Positions 39,332-50,299 of a stretch of 64,000 bases of DNA are shown piece by piece. Position 1 is the stretch's first letter. Each line of letters opens with the position of its first letter. The stretch comes from Adineta ricciae (lineage: Eukaryota > Rotifera > Eurotatoria > Adinetida > Adinetidae). The translations under genes were made by a program, and so were the position numbers. Under the pieces are notes generated by a model, which did no database searches, was not told where the DNA came from, and saw nothing but the letters and a program-made list of their open reading frames with translations. The DNA is taken from positions 124,001-188,000 of the forward strand of contig CAJNOJ010000124.1 of the NCBI GenBank assembly GCA_905250025.1, written 5' to 3'.

Positions 39332-40439
39332 CTATACGCGAGTTGACGCTGTTGATACTGATATATATTCGAGTGACCAGAGTGAATTTTCAGCAGGTGG
39401 TGTTTGATCGACTACCGACTTGTGCGAACGAATACATCGATAAATTTTATCATCATATTTCACGTGATCATCAACATAATACTGTGCATTTGCTTTCCAC
39501 GAACGAAGTCGATTCATAGATAGAACATCAATATCCTTGTTCAATGCATTAAATGTCGCTCCAATCAGTTCACCTTTGCGATCTTTACTCAGTTCCCAAA
39601 AGAAGGCACCAGCTAATCGATATTTTTTCATATAATCACATTTCCATTTAACTGATTCGAGATCTTCATAGCTAATCCAAATTCCTGTTGAACTATTGAA
39701 AAGGAATGGAACTTTAGATTGGTCATCCCAATAACGTGTGTACGAGCGAATCACGTCATTTTTTATATCGTCATAATCGAACGAACCATCGCCCCAAGTG
39801 CCATTTGGAGGAACACTCGATGCAGCTTGTAAAAATCCGTTCAAAGTCGTATTGGTTACTTCTAAAAAGAGATTTCATTGTTATGAACAAAATCAATATG
39901 CACAAAACAGGTCATATCGACAACCTTGCCAGCCGTGTCCATATAAAGGAATGCCCATGACGATCTTATTCGGTGGCACTCTCGCCGAGAGATATGCTTG
40001 AATAGCCGCATGACAATTCATTTTCGATGTATATGATGAAGCCGACGCGTCATCTAAGGTTTCATTGTCGTTTTTGTACAAAGGAGCATTGTGGCCAGTC
40101 TGTAATTCTTGATTATCTACGTGAAACAGATGGAAAATGAGTATATCGCCAAGAGATTGTTATTTACTATGGAAATTGTAGGTAACGACATTGATCCAAT
40201 CGACAAAATCAATGATCTTCGGCAAATTCATTTTACTAATATGATCAGGATTGACTCCAGTACTAAAACATTGAAACGAAAATGAAATCTTTGGCTTTGA
40301 ATGAACCTCTTGCCGCTTACGCTAAAGTTAGAAAGTATTTCGTATCCAATTGTCGACGAAGTTCTTTCAAGAAAAGGTAGAGATTTCGTTGTTTATCTTC
40401 TAAACTTCCACTATGGTTCGGCCAACTGTCCGACATCGG
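39332..40439 (-). CDS. DED-TM-GH18-CBM protein, C-terminal part (allelic copy)
   Basis: Exons (minus) 40439-40321 (partial), 40262-40168, 40116-39925 and 39861-39332 match exons 6-9 of the complete gene at 41229-43689. They encode the second half of the GH18 barrel ('VPPNKIVMGIPLYGHGW', 'AGAFFWELSKDRKGEL') and the CBM5/12-like chitin-binding tail ('SWKANAQYYVDDHVKYDDKI'). It is truncated at the N at 40440, just after the position of the lost catalytic residue. One donor site reads A|GT rather than G|GT and remains usable. Confidence 0.84.
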
Positions 40440-40440
40440 N
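40440..40440. other. Assembly junction (single N)
   Basis: The right contig restarts at the equivalent of 38543 (last PBZ fingers); the left end 40439 matches 42337. Confidence 0.9.
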
Positions 40441-40913
40441 ATGATCCTTATCATCGAGCTGCTTACCGACACACAGGTCGTCCAGATTTTCTACAACCGT
40501 GTCGTTATCAAAAAGGTTGCAGGGATAAAACCTATGATCATCGCATGAAATATTCTCATGGCGAAGAGGTATTCACAAAATCATCATCATCATCATCAGC
40601 AGCAGCAGCAGCAGCACCTTCTAAAGGTAAATTATTATTCTCTCTCCTTTTTGAAAAATTATTTATCAATTCATTTGTCGTAGAAGAAAGTGAAAAACAT
40701 GAATCCCATGATCATAGTGAGCAAACACCATGCAGAGACGGACGTAGCTGTCGTGACATCTCAACTGATCACCGAAAACGGTTCTCACATCCGTCGACTA
40801 CAACAGCTAATCGTGTAGGAAATAAAAGTAAAACTCCATGCAAATTCGGCGTGAAATGCCATAATTTCGACACGGACCATCGAGCCGACTACAGTCATCC
40901 TGACAAATCATAA
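40441..40913 (+). CDS. PARG/PBZ-array protein, last fingers (allelic copy)
   Basis: Exons 40441-40626 and 40684-40913 repeat the last four C-terminal PBZ-like fingers and the TAA. The Ser/Ala homopolymer length differs from the 38700 copy, another allelic microsatellite. It gives no information beyond the fuller copy. Confidence 0.84.
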
Positions 40914-41228
40914 CATTCAGGATTGATCTAATGTATGTGCATGCGCGTGAGCCGTAGTAATTGTTTTTGATATTCAAAATAAATTTTTACTGACATATTC
41001 GATTTCGTCCAGAAAACTTGATTATAGCCGCTTACAGCTAAATCTGATACAAAATACTTATTGAGGAAAGAGAGTGTCTCCTGAGATTTCATATTTATTG
41101 GAAGAAAGAATTTTTCTTAATTTACACACGTGCTCAACATTTACTATTGCTCTCTGTTCTCTCTGACACTTCGCTATATCACATGAACAAAACACAGATT
41201 ATCAATTTCGATAAATGAAAAAAAAACA
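40914..41228. other. Convergent 3' intergenic spacer (allelic copy)
   Basis: Counterpart of 39017-39331; no gene. Confidence 0.6.
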
Positions 41229-43689
41229 CTATACGCGACTTGCCGTTGTTGATACTGATATATATTCGAGTGACCAGAGTAGATTTTCAGCAGGTGGTGT
41301 TTGGTCGGCTACCGACTTGTGCGAACGAATGCATCGATAAATTTTATCATCATATTTCACATGATCGTCCACATAATACTGTGCATTTGCTTTCCATGAA
41401 CGAAGTCGATTCATAGATAGAACATCAATATCCTTGTTCAGTGCATTGAACGTCGCTCCAATCAGTTCACCTTTGCGATCTTTACTCAGTTCCCAGAAGA
41501 AGGCACCAGCTAATCGATTTTTTTTCATATAATCACACTTCCATTTAACTGATTCGAGATCTTCATAACTAATCCAAATTCCTGTTGAACTATTGAAAAG
41601 GAATGGAACTTTAGATTGGTCATCCCAATAACGTGTATACGAGCGAATCACGTTATTTTTTATGTCGTCATAGTCGAACGAACCATCGCCCCAAGTACCA
41701 TTCGGAGGAACACTCGATGCAGCTTGTAAAAATCCGTTCAAAGTCGTATTGGTCACTTCTAAAAAGATATTTCATTGTTATGAACAAAATCAATATGCAA
41801 AAAAACAGATCATATTGCCAACCTTGCCAACCGTATCCATATAAAGGAATGCCCATGACGATCTTATTCGGTGGCACTCTCGCCGAGAGATATGCTTGAA
41901 TAGCCGCATGACAATTCATTTTCGATGTATAAGATGAAGCCGACGCGTCATCCAAGGTTTCATTGTCGTTTTTGTACAAAGGAGCATTGTGGCCAGTCTG
42001 TAATTCTTGATTATCTACGTGAAACAGATGGAAAATGAGTATATCGCCAAGAGATTGTTATTTACCATGGAAATTGTAGGTAACGACATTGATCCAATCG
42101 ACAAAATCAATGATCTTCGGCAAATTCATTTTACTAATATGATCAGGATTAACTCCAGTACTAAAACATTGAAACGAAAATGAAATCTTTGGCTTTGAAT
42201 CAGCCTCTTGCCGCTTACGCTAAAGTTAGAAAGTATTTCGTATCCAATTGTCGACGAAGTTCTTTCAAGAAAAGGTAGAGATTTCGTTGTTTATCTTCTA
42301 AACTTCCACTATGGTTCGGCCAACTGTCCGACATCGGATCTCGCCTATACATCAAAATGATAATCTTCTTCAGCGATCTCCTGATTTTATTTACCAATTC
42401 AGATCAATCCCATCGAAATGATATTTTTCCATAAAATCGATACATGACGATGCAAAGATCGATCGACTACGATTGCTCACAATAACCTTCTTGAAGTTTT
42501 CTTGAAAGGTCTTCGAAAAAGAAAAAACGAAACAAGTCACACACCCACACCCAACTCAATTATAACTTACATCTCCACCAACAGAAATCAGTGTTCGTAG
42601 ATGTGGATATTGATTTTTCAGTTCAATTATTTGTTTTAGATTCTCCGGCATTTGCGCGTCACTTTGGTTGATATTTGTCATATTTTCTGCTGACGTATGT
42701 TTATTGAGAGCAATTCGCCCTCGTGCATCAACATATGCAAAAGCATAATTTAAATGAGTAATCTTATTGACTGGTATATCGTCAACACTATAATTCCTAT
42801 CGACCCACCATGAAAGATAATAAGCGAGAACGATCGGACTTTTTGACACTGTATCTTGATTGTGAAACAAACGACAATCATTCGAATCTAGGATATGAAA
42901 TTCAAATCAAAATAAACGTTTTGATTCATATGGAATGCTGTTTACCGGATCCGCCTGATGGTATGATTTGTACACGAATAAAGAGTGCGATGATTGAGGC
43001 AATAATAAACAAAATACTGATTATATTGAAGATAATCAATCTACGACAGGAAATACACGCTTTGAGCGTTTCTCGAAATTTTAATCTGATTAACTGATTA
43101 GGAACACTAGCCGCTTCACGAACGTTTTCTGTTACTCTCGACAGTGAATTTGGAGCAGTATTAGCAACTGGTGAAGTTGATAATTGCTCGCTGTCTTTCA
43201 AGGCTAAAAACGGCAATTGTACTTTCGTTTCATATGCCCAAAACCTACCATTGTAGCAGACTCTATCCTCTTCATTGTCACTCATCATTTGTCGCCACAA
43301 TGTTGTTTCATCTTTGCTTTTTAGTGTGTCGCCTGTTTGAGCTAAACGGAAAAAAACAAACAAACTATGATTTCAAGAACGAAAGGTGCAAATGCATTGA
43401 ACTCACATTCCAATCGTTGAACAATATCATGACGCTGAATTTGTCGAAACGCCTGTATAAGATAATCAAAATCTTGGTCATTTATCAATCCACGATCAAA
43501 TAAAGACTCCAACAGATTCAATGTGCCACCTATCGAAGGATCGTCACGCAATCTTCTCGGTATAACATTACCGAATAAAAAATGAAGACGACATCGATCC
43601 GTATCTGTTAAACTATCCTGTAACTTCAAAAGTAATCCGCGAAAATGCAATTCTTGCTTCACCAGATCGTCCTCAGTCACTCCTGACAT
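41229..43689 (-). CDS. Death effector domain - transmembrane - chitinase-like (GH18) - chitin-binding protein
   Basis: Nine minus-strand exons (43689-43407, 43341-43249, 43203-42946, 42887-42571, 42510-42395, 42344-42219, 42160-42066, 42014-41823, 41758-41229) join in phase to exactly 670 codons. Residues about 12-93 are a death effector domain ('HFRGLLLKLQDSLTD', 'FLFGNVIPRRLRDD', 'LFDRGLI', and the RxDL-like 'QRHDIVQRLE'). Residues 180-201 are one transmembrane helix ('LIIFNIISILFIIASIIALF') with Arg/Lys on its N-side, predicting a type II protein with DED in the cytosol. Residues about 229-600 are a GH18 barrel ('THLNYAFAYVDA', 'LRTLISVGG', 'GAFFWEL'). The catalytic motif reads DGIDLNWR, where active chitinases have DxxDxDxE, so hydrolysis should be lost. 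Residues 614-657 are CBM5/12-like. Best reading: a surface chitin sensor coupled to death-fold signalling. It is divergent from the F-box gene. Confidence 0.86.
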
Positions 43690-44392
43690 TGAACTGTTTT
43701 GTTTACATGCGACAGTCAATGATATACATTTTTCTTTCTTTGGTTATTCAACATGGCGTGACTAAACCAATGAAATTTTTCAACTTTACAAACAATGATC
43801 GAATAGTACATAAGCTGCAATTTAAACCAATCGATAACTGTTCATATGTTCAAAATCAATGAGTCAAACATAGTTCAAAGGAAAATGCTTATCGTATCAA
43901 AAGAGCATGATTATTGTGTTTTGTAGATTACAAAACATAGATCAATGCATGGAAAGAGTCATCGTTGACCTTTATACAGTTCAGTATTTGGAATAAGTTC
44001 TCAATGAGTAACGATTCGCACACTGTCAACCTGGAGGATCTTTGTATAATATTAAATATGATAATATATTACTACTCAATGGCTGAATAAACGAGAACAT
44101 ATGATATCACAATGAACACGAGTATTCAGTTACTCTAGATAATTCCTCTAGCGACACCTAGTTATGATCACATTTTTCAGGAATATAAAAACCATGGAAT
44201 ATTTATTTACAACGCTATTTTTCTGTGAATTTTATTCTTTAGATTATGTACACCGAATAAAGTCGGCCACTAGTCACGTTCGGTATCACCTTAACTACTG
44301 TTTTCTATTCATCTTGCGTAGAACAAATGAAAAACTTGCAACTTATTTTAACTGCTATAAACGTTGCTCTACATGAATATTGAAAAAAGGAC
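43690..44392. promoter_or_regulatory. Divergent promoter region, DED-GH18 gene and F-box gene
   Basis: About 700 bp between two divergent starts. It is strongly conserved with 47905-48601 in the other haplotype, including a 12-bp ATAATATATTAC-type AT core near 44060. A small frame at 44164-44376 is shared but has no domain. No specific factor site is assigned. Confidence 0.5.
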
Positions 44393-46093
44393 ATGGCCAA
44401 ACTCGAGTGTTTACCGAACGAACTCTTTCTTGAACTATTCGATTATTTTGATGGTACTGACCTTCTACATTTATTCTTTGGTCTCAATTCTCGTTTCAAT
44501 CATCTTCTCTACGAACAAGTTCAACATTACCGGTTTAAATTCACTTCAGTGTCAAAACGTCGCTTTGATACTATCTGTCAGCAACATTTACCATGCATTG
44601 CCTGTCGGACTACAACTCTTTTGCTGTCCAATCATGATGATACACCTGAACAGATCGATTTCTTCCTCTCCTACGTACCATCGTGGAAATCGTTCACGGA
44701 TTTACAGTCGCTCTCTCTTGCACATGTTTCATCATATCAAACGTTGTTAGAAGTCGTGCGTCGATGTTCTTCTCTTGTTAATCTCAACAGTTTGACATTG
44801 GATAGTTGCGTTTTAGAAAGCAATCAATCGGATCTCCAAGTCATGCTTGACATGATCTGGAGTTTAGCAAAACTGAGATTTTGCCAGCTTGGTATCTTAC
44901 TTGCGGACGAGCCGTGGATATTTGCATCTACAAAAGTGTCTTTATGCTTGGAACAACTTCTGATTTACTGGAAATCTTTTGAACTAAACGAACTGAATAG
45001 GGTCTATGAATGCACACCGCACCTCAAGCATCTTTCGGTTTTGATTGCTCCCTCGTTAAAAAAGTGTTCGCTGAAATCGAACTTTTCAACGCTAGTCAAC
45101 TTGAATATGCGCCTTTATGAACGATCGAACGATTTAATCACTGAAATTCTTCAAACTACACAGAATGTACGCTACTTAGAAATGACTTTGTTAAACAATC
45201 TGATTGATGGCCACCGATGGGAACAGATTATTCGAACTAATTTGTTAAATCTGACGACATTTCGATTACGAATGAAGGATACCTTACCTAAAAACGATCA
45301 TCTTCAGGAGCGTCTGAATAATCTATTTTATTCGTTTCAAAGTCGATTTTGGATCCATGAACGCCAATGGTTTATTCGATGTTTAACGTGGGATTCAACT
45401 ATTCATCTCTATACATTGCCTCGTAAAGTGAATTATTACGAACGAAAGCTACCTGATTCCCGAAGATCGACAAGTCCACACGATGATGATGACGAATTTT
45501 ACAACAATATAACAAATATTCATGACGAAACGTTTTTCGATCAATCGATTCCATATCCAATGCATTTGTCAAAGATCAAACATCTCCGGATAAAACTTCC
45601 TATCAACAAGCAGTTTTGGTCGATCGTTTCGAGTTTAAAAAAATTAATTTCCTTAACAATCGAGTCATACACAGATGTCTTTCAGTGGCAAGTACAGACA
45701 TTACTTGATCGAGCATGTCACTTACAAAACTTGAGTATCAAACAAGATGCGTCACTGCCTCTGCAGTCATCGTTATTCGATTGTACAAATACGTCACTTA
45801 ATGAACTCGACTTAGGAGATTTGAATTATACTTTCCATGAAAATGAATGTATTCGACTAGCTCGTTCTCCATTAGGCTCTAAATGTCATATCCTATCGAT
45901 CGTCGTCCAAGAGCGCCAGAACGTTGTCACTCTTGTTCGACATATGAAGAATCTTCAAACATTGAAAGTTCACCTGAAAGATGGAAGTAACGACGACAGT
46001 GCTGTTCGATGGCTAAGAAATAATTTATCGTCAACTTATGTGATCATAAAAAGTAAAGATGATGCCACAGATTATATTTTAATCTGGATGTAA
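44393..46093 (+). CDS. F-box protein with leucine-rich C-terminal region
   Basis: An intronless 566-residue protein. The first 40 residues form an F-box ('LECLPNELFLELFDYFDG', then 'LLHLFFGLNSRFNHLL'), which docks on Skp1 in SCF ubiquitin ligases. The rest has irregular leucine-rich segments ('FTDLQSLSLAHVS', 'LVNLNSLTLDSC', 'LQNLSIKQDASLPL') expected to bind a substrate. A polar insertion with an Asp/Glu run ('PHDDDDEFYNN') lies near residue 360. Poly(A) signal AATAAA near 46138. Substrate is unknown. The full allelic copy is at 48602. Such F-box/LRR genes are expanded in bdelloids, in my recollection. Confidence 0.85.
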   Translation: MAKLECLPNELFLELFDYFDGTDLLHLFFGLNSRFNHLLYEQVQHYRFKFTSVSKRRFDTICQQHLPCIACRTTTLLLSNHDDTPEQIDFFLSYVPSWKSFTDLQSLSLAHVSSYQTLLEVVRRCSSLVNLNSLTLDSCVLESNQSDLQVMLDMIWSLAKLRFCQLGILLADEPWIFASTKVSLCLEQLLIYWKSFELNELNRVYECTPHLKHLSVLIAPSLKKCSLKSNFSTLVNLNMRLYERSNDLITEILQTTQNVRYLEMTLLNNLIDGHRWEQIIRTNLLNLTTFRLRMKDTLPKNDHLQERLNNLFYSFQSRFWIHERQWFIRCLTWDSTIHLYTLPRKVNYYERKLPDSRRSTSPHDDDDEFYNNITNIHDETFFDQSIPYPMHLSKIKHLRIKLPINKQFWSIVSSLKKLISLTIESYTDVFQWQVQTLLDRACHLQNLSIKQDASLPLQSSLFDCTNTSLNELDLGDLNYTFHENECIRLARSPLGSKCHILSIVVQERQNVVTLVRHMKNLQTLKVHLKDGSNDDSAVRWLRNNLSSTYVIIKSKDDATDYILIWM

Positions 46094-46248
46094 AAGCGTT
46101 GATCTCTTTTCTTTGTCCCGTAGAACGTAGATTTCATAATAAATAAAGGACATCTCCTATACTCAAAAACAAGGGTAAATATTGAGAACGTAATATTCAT
46201 ACCGATACTTATATTTGCAAGATTATATTATAGTTAGAGTACAGTAAT

Positions 46249-46430
46249 TTAGCATAGAGTGTCATATATTCTTTTCCATCGCGGCCATGCCATGCGTTCG
46301 GCTCTTTCTTCATCAATGAGCTGTTGAGTGTCAATTTGCCGTCTTCCCGTATCCAAGTCGATAGTGCTAGGTCGCATAAATGGAGTTTTTTTCCATACTT
46401 TCCATACTATATAGAAAACAAGAATGAATG
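46249..46430 (-). CDS. YAT-type amino-acid permease, C-terminal fragment (allelic copy)
   Basis: The minus frame ends in 'RWKRIYDTLC' and a stop at 46249-46251, identical to the end of the complete permease at 50455. It is cut by the N at 46431 after about 60 residues, in the last transmembrane segment. It shows that the permease follows the F-box gene in both haplotypes. Confidence 0.8.
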
Positions 46431-46431
46431 N
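46431..46431. other. Assembly junction (single N)
   Basis: The right contig restarts at the equivalent of 42217, inside the DED-GH18 gene; the left end matches 50636. Confidence 0.9.
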
Positions 46432-47904: not shown

Positions 47905-48601
47905 TGAACTGTTTTGTTTACATACGACAGTCAATGACATACATTTCTCTTTCTTTGGTTATTCAACATGGCGTGACTAAACCAATGAAATTTTTCAACT
48001 TTACAAACAACGATCGAATAGTACATAAGCTGCAATTTAAACCAATCGATAACTGTTCATATGTTCAAAATCAATGAGTCATAATTCAAAGGAAAATGCT
48101 TATCGTATCAAAAGAGCATGATTATTGTGTTTTGTTGATTACAAAACATAGATGAATGCATGGAAAGGGTCATCATTGACCTTTATAAGTCCACTATTTA
48201 GATTAAGTTTTCAATGAGTAACGATTCACACACTGTGAAACCGGTAGGATCTTTGTATAATATTAAATACGATAATATATTACTACTCAATGGCTGAATA
48301 AACGAGAACATGATATCACAATGACCACGAATATTCAGTTACTCTAGATAATTCCTCTAGCGACACCTACTTATGGTCACATTTTTCACGAATATAAAAA
48401 CCATGGAATATTTATTTGCAATGCTATTTTTCGGTGAATTTTATTCTTTAGATTTTGTACACCGAATAAAGTTGGCCACTAGTTATGTTCGATATCACCT
48501 TAACTACTGTTTTCTATTCATCTTGCATAGAACAAATGAAAAACTTACAACTTATTTTAACTGCTACAAAACGTTGCTCTACATGAATATAAAAAAAGCA
48601 C
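47905..48601. promoter_or_regulatory. Divergent promoter region (allelic copy)
   Basis: Counterpart of 43690-44392 with high identity and a few indels. Confidence 0.5.
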
Positions 48602-50299
48602 ATGGTCAAACTCGAGTGTTTACCGAACGAACTCTTTCTTGAACTATTCGATTATTTCGATGGTATTGACCTTCTACATCTATTCTTTGGTCTCAATTCT
48701 CGTTTCAATCATCTTCTCTACGAACAAGTTCAACATTATCGTTTTAAATTCACTTCAGCGTCAAAACGTCGCTTTGATATTATCTGTCAGCAACATTTAC
48801 CATTCATTGCCTGTCGGACTACAACTCTTTTGCTGTCCAATCATGATGATACACCTGAACAGATCGATTTCTTCCTCTCCTACGTACCATCGTGGAAATC
48901 GTTCACGGATTTACAGTCGCTCTCTCTTGCACATGTTTCATCATATCAAACGTTGTTCGAAGTCGTGCGTCGATGTTCTACTCTTGTTAATCTCAACAGT
49001 TTGACATTGAATAGCTGCGTTTTAGAAAGCAATCAATCGGATTTCCAAGTCATGCTTGACATGATTTGGAGTTTAGCAAAACTGAGATTTTGCCAGCTTG
49101 ATATCATGCTTGCGGAAGAGCCGTGGATATTTGCATCTACAAAAGTGTCTTTGTGTTTGGAACAGATTCTGATTTACCGGAAATCTTTTGAACTAAACGA
49201 ACTGAATAGGCTCTATGAATGCACACCTCATCTCAAGCATCTTTCGGTTTTGATCGCTTCCTCGTTCAACACGTGTTCGCTGAAATCGAGCTTTTCAACG
49301 CTAGTCAAGTTGAATATGCGCCTTTATGAACGATCGAATGATTTAATCGAGGAGATTCTTCAAACTACACAGAATGTACGCTGCTTAGAAATGACTTTGT
49401 TAAACAATCTTATTGATGGTCACCGATGGGAACAGATCATTCGAACTAATTTGTTAAATCTGACGAAATTTCGATTACGAATGAAGGATACCTTACCTAA
49501 AAACGATCATCTTCAAGAGCGTTTGAATAAACTATTTTATTCGTTTCAAAGTCGATTTTGGATCCATGAACACCGATGGTTTATTCGATGTTTAACGTGG
49601 GACTCAACTATTCATCTCTATACATTACCTCGTAAAGTGAATTATTACGAACAAAAGCTACCCGATTCCCGAAGATCGACAAGTCCACACGATGATGATG
49701 AAGAGTTTTACAACAATATAACAAATATTCATGATGAAACTTTTTTCAATCAACCGATTCCATATTCAATGCGTTTGTCACAAATCAAACATCTCCGGAT
49801 AAAACTTCCTATTGACAAGCAGTTTTGGTCGATCGTTCCGAGTTTAAAAAAGTTAATTTCGTTAACAATCGAGTCATATATGGATGTGTTTCAATGGCAA
49901 GTACAAACATTACTTGATCGAGCATGTCACTTACAAAACTTAAGTATCAAACAAGATGCATCACTGCCCCTGCAATCATCGTTATTCGATTGCACAAATA
50001 CATCAGTTGATGAACTTGACTTAGGAGATTTGAATTATACGTTTCATGAAAATGACTGTATTCGACTAGCTCATTCTCCGCTATGCTCCATATGTCACAT
50101 CCTATCGATCGTCGTTAAAGAGCGTCAGAACGTTGTCACTCTTGTTCGACATATGAAGAATCTTCAAACGTTGAAAGTTCAACTGAAAGATGGAAGCAAC
50201 GACGATAATGTTATTCAATGGCTCAGAAATAATTTATCGTCAACTTATGTGATCGTAAAAAGTAAAGACGATGCAAATAATATTCTAATCTGGATGTAA
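48602..50299 (+). CDS. F-box protein with leucine-rich region, allelic copy (complete)
   Basis: 565 residues, intronless, the same F-box ('LECLPNELFLELFDYFDG') and leucine-rich body as the 44393 copy, with scattered substitutions. The stop is one codon earlier after a 3-bp deletion near the end ('DDANNILIWM' against 'DDATDYILIWM'). Most changes lie in the LRR part, where substrate contacts would be, but they do not look like an excess that could be judged by eye. Confidence 0.85.
   Translation: MVKLECLPNELFLELFDYFDGIDLLHLFFGLNSRFNHLLYEQVQHYRFKFTSASKRRFDIICQQHLPFIACRTTTLLLSNHDDTPEQIDFFLSYVPSWKSFTDLQSLSLAHVSSYQTLFEVVRRCSTLVNLNSLTLNSCVLESNQSDFQVMLDMIWSLAKLRFCQLDIMLAEEPWIFASTKVSLCLEQILIYRKSFELNELNRLYECTPHLKHLSVLIASSFNTCSLKSSFSTLVKLNMRLYERSNDLIEEILQTTQNVRCLEMTLLNNLIDGHRWEQIIRTNLLNLTKFRLRMKDTLPKNDHLQERLNKLFYSFQSRFWIHEHRWFIRCLTWDSTIHLYTLPRKVNYYEQKLPDSRRSTSPHDDDEEFYNNITNIHDETFFNQPIPYSMRLSQIKHLRIKLPIDKQFWSIVPSLKKLISLTIESYMDVFQWQVQTLLDRACHLQNLSIKQDASLPLQSSLFDCTNTSVDELDLGDLNYTFHENDCIRLAHSPLCSICHILSIVVKERQNVVTLVRHMKNLQTLKVQLKDGSNDDNVIQWLRNNLSSTYVIVKSKDDANNILIWM

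Follow-up and report, generated by a model that had tools for sequence, protein, structure and literature searches.

We analysed a 64,000-nucleotide stretch of Adineta ricciae DNA (positions 124,001 to 188,000 of contig CAJNOJ010000124.1, GenBank assembly GCA_905250025.1; hereafter the window) and describe one of its genes, at 43689-41229 on the minus strand, in which a death effector domain (DED), a predicted membrane helix, a GH18 barrel and a CBM5/12 module share a single frame.

A gene joining a death effector domain to a GH18 barrel

Splicing in silico joined nine exons into a single reading frame, with 669 codons ahead of the stop. All introns are of the GT-AG type and 45-65 bp long, and the stretch around the gene (40441-46430) does not contain any N. 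The 669-residue protein scored above the curated Pfam cut-offs for DED (PF01335; residues 16-94, 40.1 bits, cut-off 35.9), GH18 (residues 232-587, 252.3 bits, cut-off 29.6) and CBM_5_12 (residues 615-655, 33.3 bits, cut-off 26.2), and it has one hydropathy peak only (19-residue mean >1.6), with the best value, 2.95, at residues 181-199. The exons of this gene (copy A) and the parts of a second copy (copy B) are as follows:

43407..43689, minus strand: exon 1, start codon and DED (residues 16-94 = 43644-43408)
43249..43341, minus strand: exon 2, linker with an acidic DNEED stretch
42946..43203, minus strand: exon 3, linker, basic stretch and predicted membrane helix (residues 181-199 = 43039-42983)
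42571..42887, minus strand: exon 4, stalk and start of the GH18 barrel (residue 232 = 42828)
42395..42510, minus strand: exon 5, GH18, with the beginning of the degenerate catalytic motif DGIDLNW
42219..42344, minus strand: exon 6, GH18, with codon 42343-42341 encoding Arg at the expected catalytic Glu
42066..42160, minus strand: exon 7, GH18, with VTYNF replacing MTYDF
41823..42014, minus strand: exon 8, GH18
41229..41758, minus strand: exon 9, remainder of GH18 (to 41478), CBM5/12 (41396-41274) and stop codon
46434..47904, minus strand: copy B, exons 1-6, with a single N next at 46431
39332..40439, minus strand: copy B, exons 7-9 and, once more, part of exon 6, interrupted by a single N at 40440

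A home-made gene finder based on codons and splice sites, anchored in the DED exon, likewise ran from the DED through the helix into GH18; its model departs from the nine-exon model in that the 45-nt in-frame intron 2 is retained and the last 46 nt are swapped for a false final exon. Since this model and the deposited one considered below may both be mere predictions, it could be argued that the DED and membrane exons on the one hand and the GH18 exons on the other are two genes joined by annotation, or joined only in a minor transcript. We regard this as very improbable. The first Met C-terminal of the helix is residue 281, within the barrel, so the GH18 exons lack a start codon ahead of it; the intron between the membrane exon and the first GH18 exon is 58 bp long, of the GT-AG type and of equal phase in both copies; a deposited protein has the same join; and the order DED, helix, lectin recurs in other bdelloid DED proteins. 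The earlier note on this DNA had proposed that nine exons form one 669-residue frame with a DED, a helix, a GH18 barrel and a CBM5/12-like tail, which is borne out by the GT-AG splicing, the N-free sequence, the Pfam scores, the single hydropathy peak and the deposited protein. At the level of genomic sequence, we thus consider it confirmed that these parts belong to one fused gene.

In the scaffold, copy B is split in two by the segment carrying copy A (40441-46430). Exon lengths are equal in both copies for exons 1-5 (283, 93, 258, 317 and 116 bp), as the earlier note had stated for a second haplotype, and exon 6 (126 bp) is identical in length as well. Spliced across the misjoin, copy B is identical in 669 of 669 residues to a deposited A. 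ricciae protein (P0001), which means that other annotators reached the same exon join. The synonymous divergence (dS) between the copies over the whole coding sequence is 0.165, on which grounds they look like alleles, and the joins at 40440 and 46431 likely represent a misjoin in which a segment of one allele was inserted into the other. That copy B is a truncated gene was ruled out, since its 3' part is present at 39332-40439 and gives P0001 once joined to the 5' part. Further single-N scaffold joins in the window are found at 360, 7529, 13064, 26232, 30524 and 36456. Copies A and B are flanked by two very similar long plus-strand open reading frames (44384-46093 and 48593-50299), likely also alleles, whose products resemble F-box-type proteins by eye.

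The death effector domain, the helix and the barrel

The predicted structure of the DED is a six-helix death fold, nearest to the DEDs of FADD and caspase-8, and PEA-15 is also among the structural matches; profile and predicted structure thus both assign the N-terminus to the death folds, and the failure of profiles to do so, which the earlier note had named as a refutation, did not occur. A sequence search against PDB chains returned weak matches only (FADD, E 0.7; an unrelated chain, E 0.2) and was not used as proof. The charge triad (an acidic residue plus RxDL), represented by E19, R72 and D74 in FADD, is kept as D31, R86 and D88, followed by I89. The predicted fold and the charge positions are common to the window DED and the DEDs of FADD, caspase-8, cFLIP and PEA-15, which are soluble proteins. 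By Pfam, the window protein has neither a caspase nor a Death domain. At the Arg position of RxDL the window DED has Arg, while the other aligned bdelloid DEDs have Cys (33/33 in alignment A3 and 22/22 in alignment A2). The DEDs of the DED-helicase genes described below, which lie outside these two alignments, read by eye GRIDL and NREDC at this position, likewise with Arg.

Basic residues around the single hydrophobic helix are more numerous on the N-terminal side (five before and one after the helix in the window copy, four and one in P0001). A type II topology is predicted on this basis, which would place the DED inside and the barrel and CBM outside; it should be read as a hint only. Sequons were also examined and are weak evidence on topology. 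In a comparison of the two copies, the nonsynonymous divergence (dN) of the linker is 0.13 (dS 0.26), against lower dN values in the DED (dN 0.014, dS 0.18) and in the barrel (dN 0.014, dS 0.15). Homology of the linker to other DED-lectin proteins is strong for P0121 and P0122 only.

In the model of the barrel, 23 of the 37 ten-residue blocks reach a mean pLDDT of at least 90, and ChiA1 (1itx) is its best structural match. Active GH18 chitinases carry the motif DxxDxDxE with the catalytic Glu. The corresponding motif in the window barrel is D-x-x-D-x-N-x-R, i.e. the catalytic Glu is replaced by Arg, as compared with 40 relatives taken from at least 119 others listed. Five more positions that are near-invariant in these 40 relatives are changed as well, while W582 is retained; among the changes, two neighbouring Asp are replaced by Asn and the Met of MTYD by Val. 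Loss of the catalytic residues, which would leave the barrel dead as an enzyme, together with purifying selection between the copies points to binding, and the barrel is predicted to bind rather than to cut. The fold looks intact, as judged from the pLDDT values and the match to 1itx, and one might therefore propose a membrane-bound chitinase with a signalling tail that still cleaves chitin by an altered mechanism; given that the catalytic acid is Arg and that the two Asp and the Met are also lost at positions near-invariant in the 40 relatives, we find this most unlikely.

In a tree of 41 rows, the window barrel falls inside a bdelloid group (support 100/100) and also inside two further supported forks (96/89 and 100/99), and its branch length is 0.99; owing to this long branch its exact neighbours are unsure. 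The group comprises 18 bdelloid rows, 15 by name and three (P0004, P0007 and P0014) so labelled because they group there, and the catalytic Glu is kept in 16 of the 17 rows other than the window barrel. Rows outside the group are bacterial, without an organism label or, once, fungal. We infer that a bacterial chitinase was acquired by bdelloids and that one of its descendants was taken over by a DED-membrane cassette. The barrel fold, and in many cases CBM5/12, is common to bacterial ChiA1-type GH18 chitinases, the bdelloid relatives (P0002-P0018) and the window protein, which differs from the others in the loss of the catalytic residues and the fusion to a DED and a helix. One bdelloid GH18 protein without a DED, P0016 from Rotaria sp. 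Silwood1, has the motif DLQWV and is likewise without the catalytic Glu.

Other bdelloid DED proteins

Profile searches of the A. ricciae genome gave at least 46 DED matches. From a list of 49 DED positions, 37 were modelled and 12 were skipped without a locus (two of them being the window copies and one being modelled later); the 37 models correspond to 34 distinct ones, which include alleles, paralogues and some models running into neighbouring genes. The Pfam scan covered ten of 17 trimmed models (one cut to 596 and one to 520 residues), and the partners of the DED were Jacalin in four, NHL repeats in three and TPR, DM9 and a DEAD-type helicase in one each; the DED itself was over the cut-off in 4/10. 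Database proteins, which are independent of the home-made models, have DED-Jacalin combinations in Rotaria, A. vaga and A. ricciae and a DED-DM9 combination in A. ricciae, with the DED over the cut-off in three of 14 (P0001 included). A helix was predicted in 14 of the 20 database DED proteins examined, these being a selection from at least 81 listed, plus P0001. Judged from these predicted proteins, the window gene is part of a wider bdelloid set in which DEDs are combined with various domains, lectin-like ones among them.

Exon shuffling is classically associated with symmetric phase-1 exons. In the window gene a phase-1 intron follows both the DED exon and the membrane exon, and across the models phase 1 was found after 31 of 35 DED exons and 19 of 22 helix exons, compared with 52 of 112 other introns of the same models; the 35 DED exons include some counted twice, and a hand count of distinct exons gave 28/32.

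Two loci (L001 and L007 on contig C210 of the assembly, G000) have DED exons, in one case in tandem, adjoining helicase sequence; Pfam, as applied to L007 only, gave DEAD/ResIII. Three further models (L054, L056 and L016; Pfam on L054 only) are of the form DED-helix-TPR, where a TPR array as the outer part would be unusual.

A candidate chitin-sensing receptor and its relation to known systems

We lean, if modestly, towards the reading that the window protein is a cell-surface receptor that binds chitin or chito-oligosaccharides outside and clusters its DED inside. Chitin of parasitic fungi, or the animal's own, would bring receptors together; as a repetitive polymer it could gather them such that the DEDs stack, as DEDs do, and the stacked DEDs may then recruit other DED proteins. 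Somewhat more tentatively, and with slightly less than even confidence, we propose that bdelloids have a modular class of DED-tailed single-pass receptors with sugar- or pattern-binding ectodomains interchangeable via phase-1 exons, the window ectodomain being a horizontally transferred bacterial chitinase that was killed as an enzyme but retained for sensing chitin. The phase-1 introns after the DED and membrane exons would let the DED-membrane cassette take up new ectodomains, and the one captured here may have been a domesticated bacterial-type chitinase that lost catalysis afterwards.

Exon-by-exon profile searches of the genome gave at least 81 caspase-domain and at least 23 Death-domain matches. 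No caspase domain was found within 11 kb of the 49 DED positions (the nearest lies at 11.9 kb) and no Death domain within 159 kb on the same contig, and the same profiles, which may miss divergent members, turned up no DED-caspase or FADD-like gene. The DED caspase or FADD partners envisaged in the earlier note were thus not found near these positions, and this weighs against an apoptotic role of the receptor. As no DED-caspase or FADD-like gene was found, the DED-helicases (L001 and L007) and L061 are named as candidates for recruited DED partners. L061 (C73:331700-334700) is a predicted DED-only protein of 114 residues and a possible adaptor; of several caspase-domain matches, the nearest to it lies about 17 kb away.

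The same absence near any of the 49 positions would suit a membrane-anchored chitin-binding protein acting in adhesion, scavenging or cuticle handling, with the DED as a PEA-15-like docking or trafficking module that gives no death or immune signal. Rotifers possess chitin of their own, and PEA-15 is one of the structural matches of the DED, both of which fit such a role. That other bdelloid DEDs come with lectin, propeller and DM9 parts fits recognition better than one structural task, however, and the FADD-like charge positions are kept, so that we hold this explanation to be rather unlikely, albeit the most serious of the alternatives. An inhibitor or decoy, which would bind chitin or sequester DED partners to damp signalling in the manner of cFLIP or decoy receptors, appears less probable still: the window DED is alone in having Arg where the aligned bdelloid DEDs have Cys, and its partners may therefore differ, but the Arg brings it closer to canonical DEDs and there is no sign of inhibition.

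Receptors that pair a recognition part with a death-fold tail are already known as a kind. Oyster membrane proteins with DED and TRADD-N form a lineage-specific expansion, with about 50 in Crassostrea virginica (PMC8195603), and the view in the earlier note that DEDs are known only in cytosolic proteins was therefore too strong. An expanded family, an extracellular part, one transmembrane helix and an intracellular DED (predicted in bdelloids) are common to both sets. In the oyster proteins, however, a Cys-rich ectodomain is N-terminal and the DED is accompanied by TRADD-N and a variable C-terminal tail, whereas the window protein has the DED N-terminal and the variable part C-terminal beyond the helix. 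TRADD-N was absent from the Pfam results of the window protein and the other bdelloid DED proteins, though Pfam may have no model for the NCOA6-type TRADD-N. Plant GH18 receptor-like kinases such as tobacco CHRK1, with GH18 outside and a signalling domain inside (PMC5485988), share with the window protein a GH18 ectodomain on a signalling protein (topology predicted here); CHRK1 is a plant kinase whose GH18 is expected by that review to be enzymatic, while the window protein has a DED, has lost its catalytic residues and has no kinase domain in its Pfam results. Amphioxus hybrids such as TNFR-caspase across the membrane and DED-NACHT (PMC2575513) likewise carry the recognition part directly on the death-pathway part with no adaptor, and no DED with a lectin or chitinase was seen in the available part of that paper. 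In lophotrochozoan RIG-I-like receptors a DED sits on a recognition module as here, but a helicase takes the place of helix and ectodomain (PMC8998645); L001 and L007 are similar genes in the A. ricciae genome.

We found no DED-GH18 or DED-jacalin protein in print, in literature that was covered without most subscription journals; PMC7148315 names both jacalin and the death effector domain, in the available part in separate proteins. As far as these searches reach, the DED-GH18 combination, the order with an N-terminal DED and the bdelloid DED repertoire, as predicted here, appear to be new. If the proposed origin is true, horizontal gene transfer provides an animal signalling receptor with its recognition part, and genes from microbes feed the animal receptor repertoire directed against microbes.

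Bdelloids are largely asexual in their reproduction and suffer attack by parasitic fungi. The proteins in which a DED is combined with a lectin-like part or with a dead chitinase are concrete candidates for fungal-sensing receptors in these animals. A study of the response of A. ricciae and A. vaga to a fungal pathogen states that metazoan genes were not explored in detail, and it suggests a possible role as recognition receptors for acquired genes directed at the fungal wall (PMC11258130). In a survey of rotifer secretory lectins, candidates had to lack transmembrane regions and chitinase-like lectins were left out (PMC8878817); by these criteria the bdelloid DED-lectin and DED-chitinase set would be missed.
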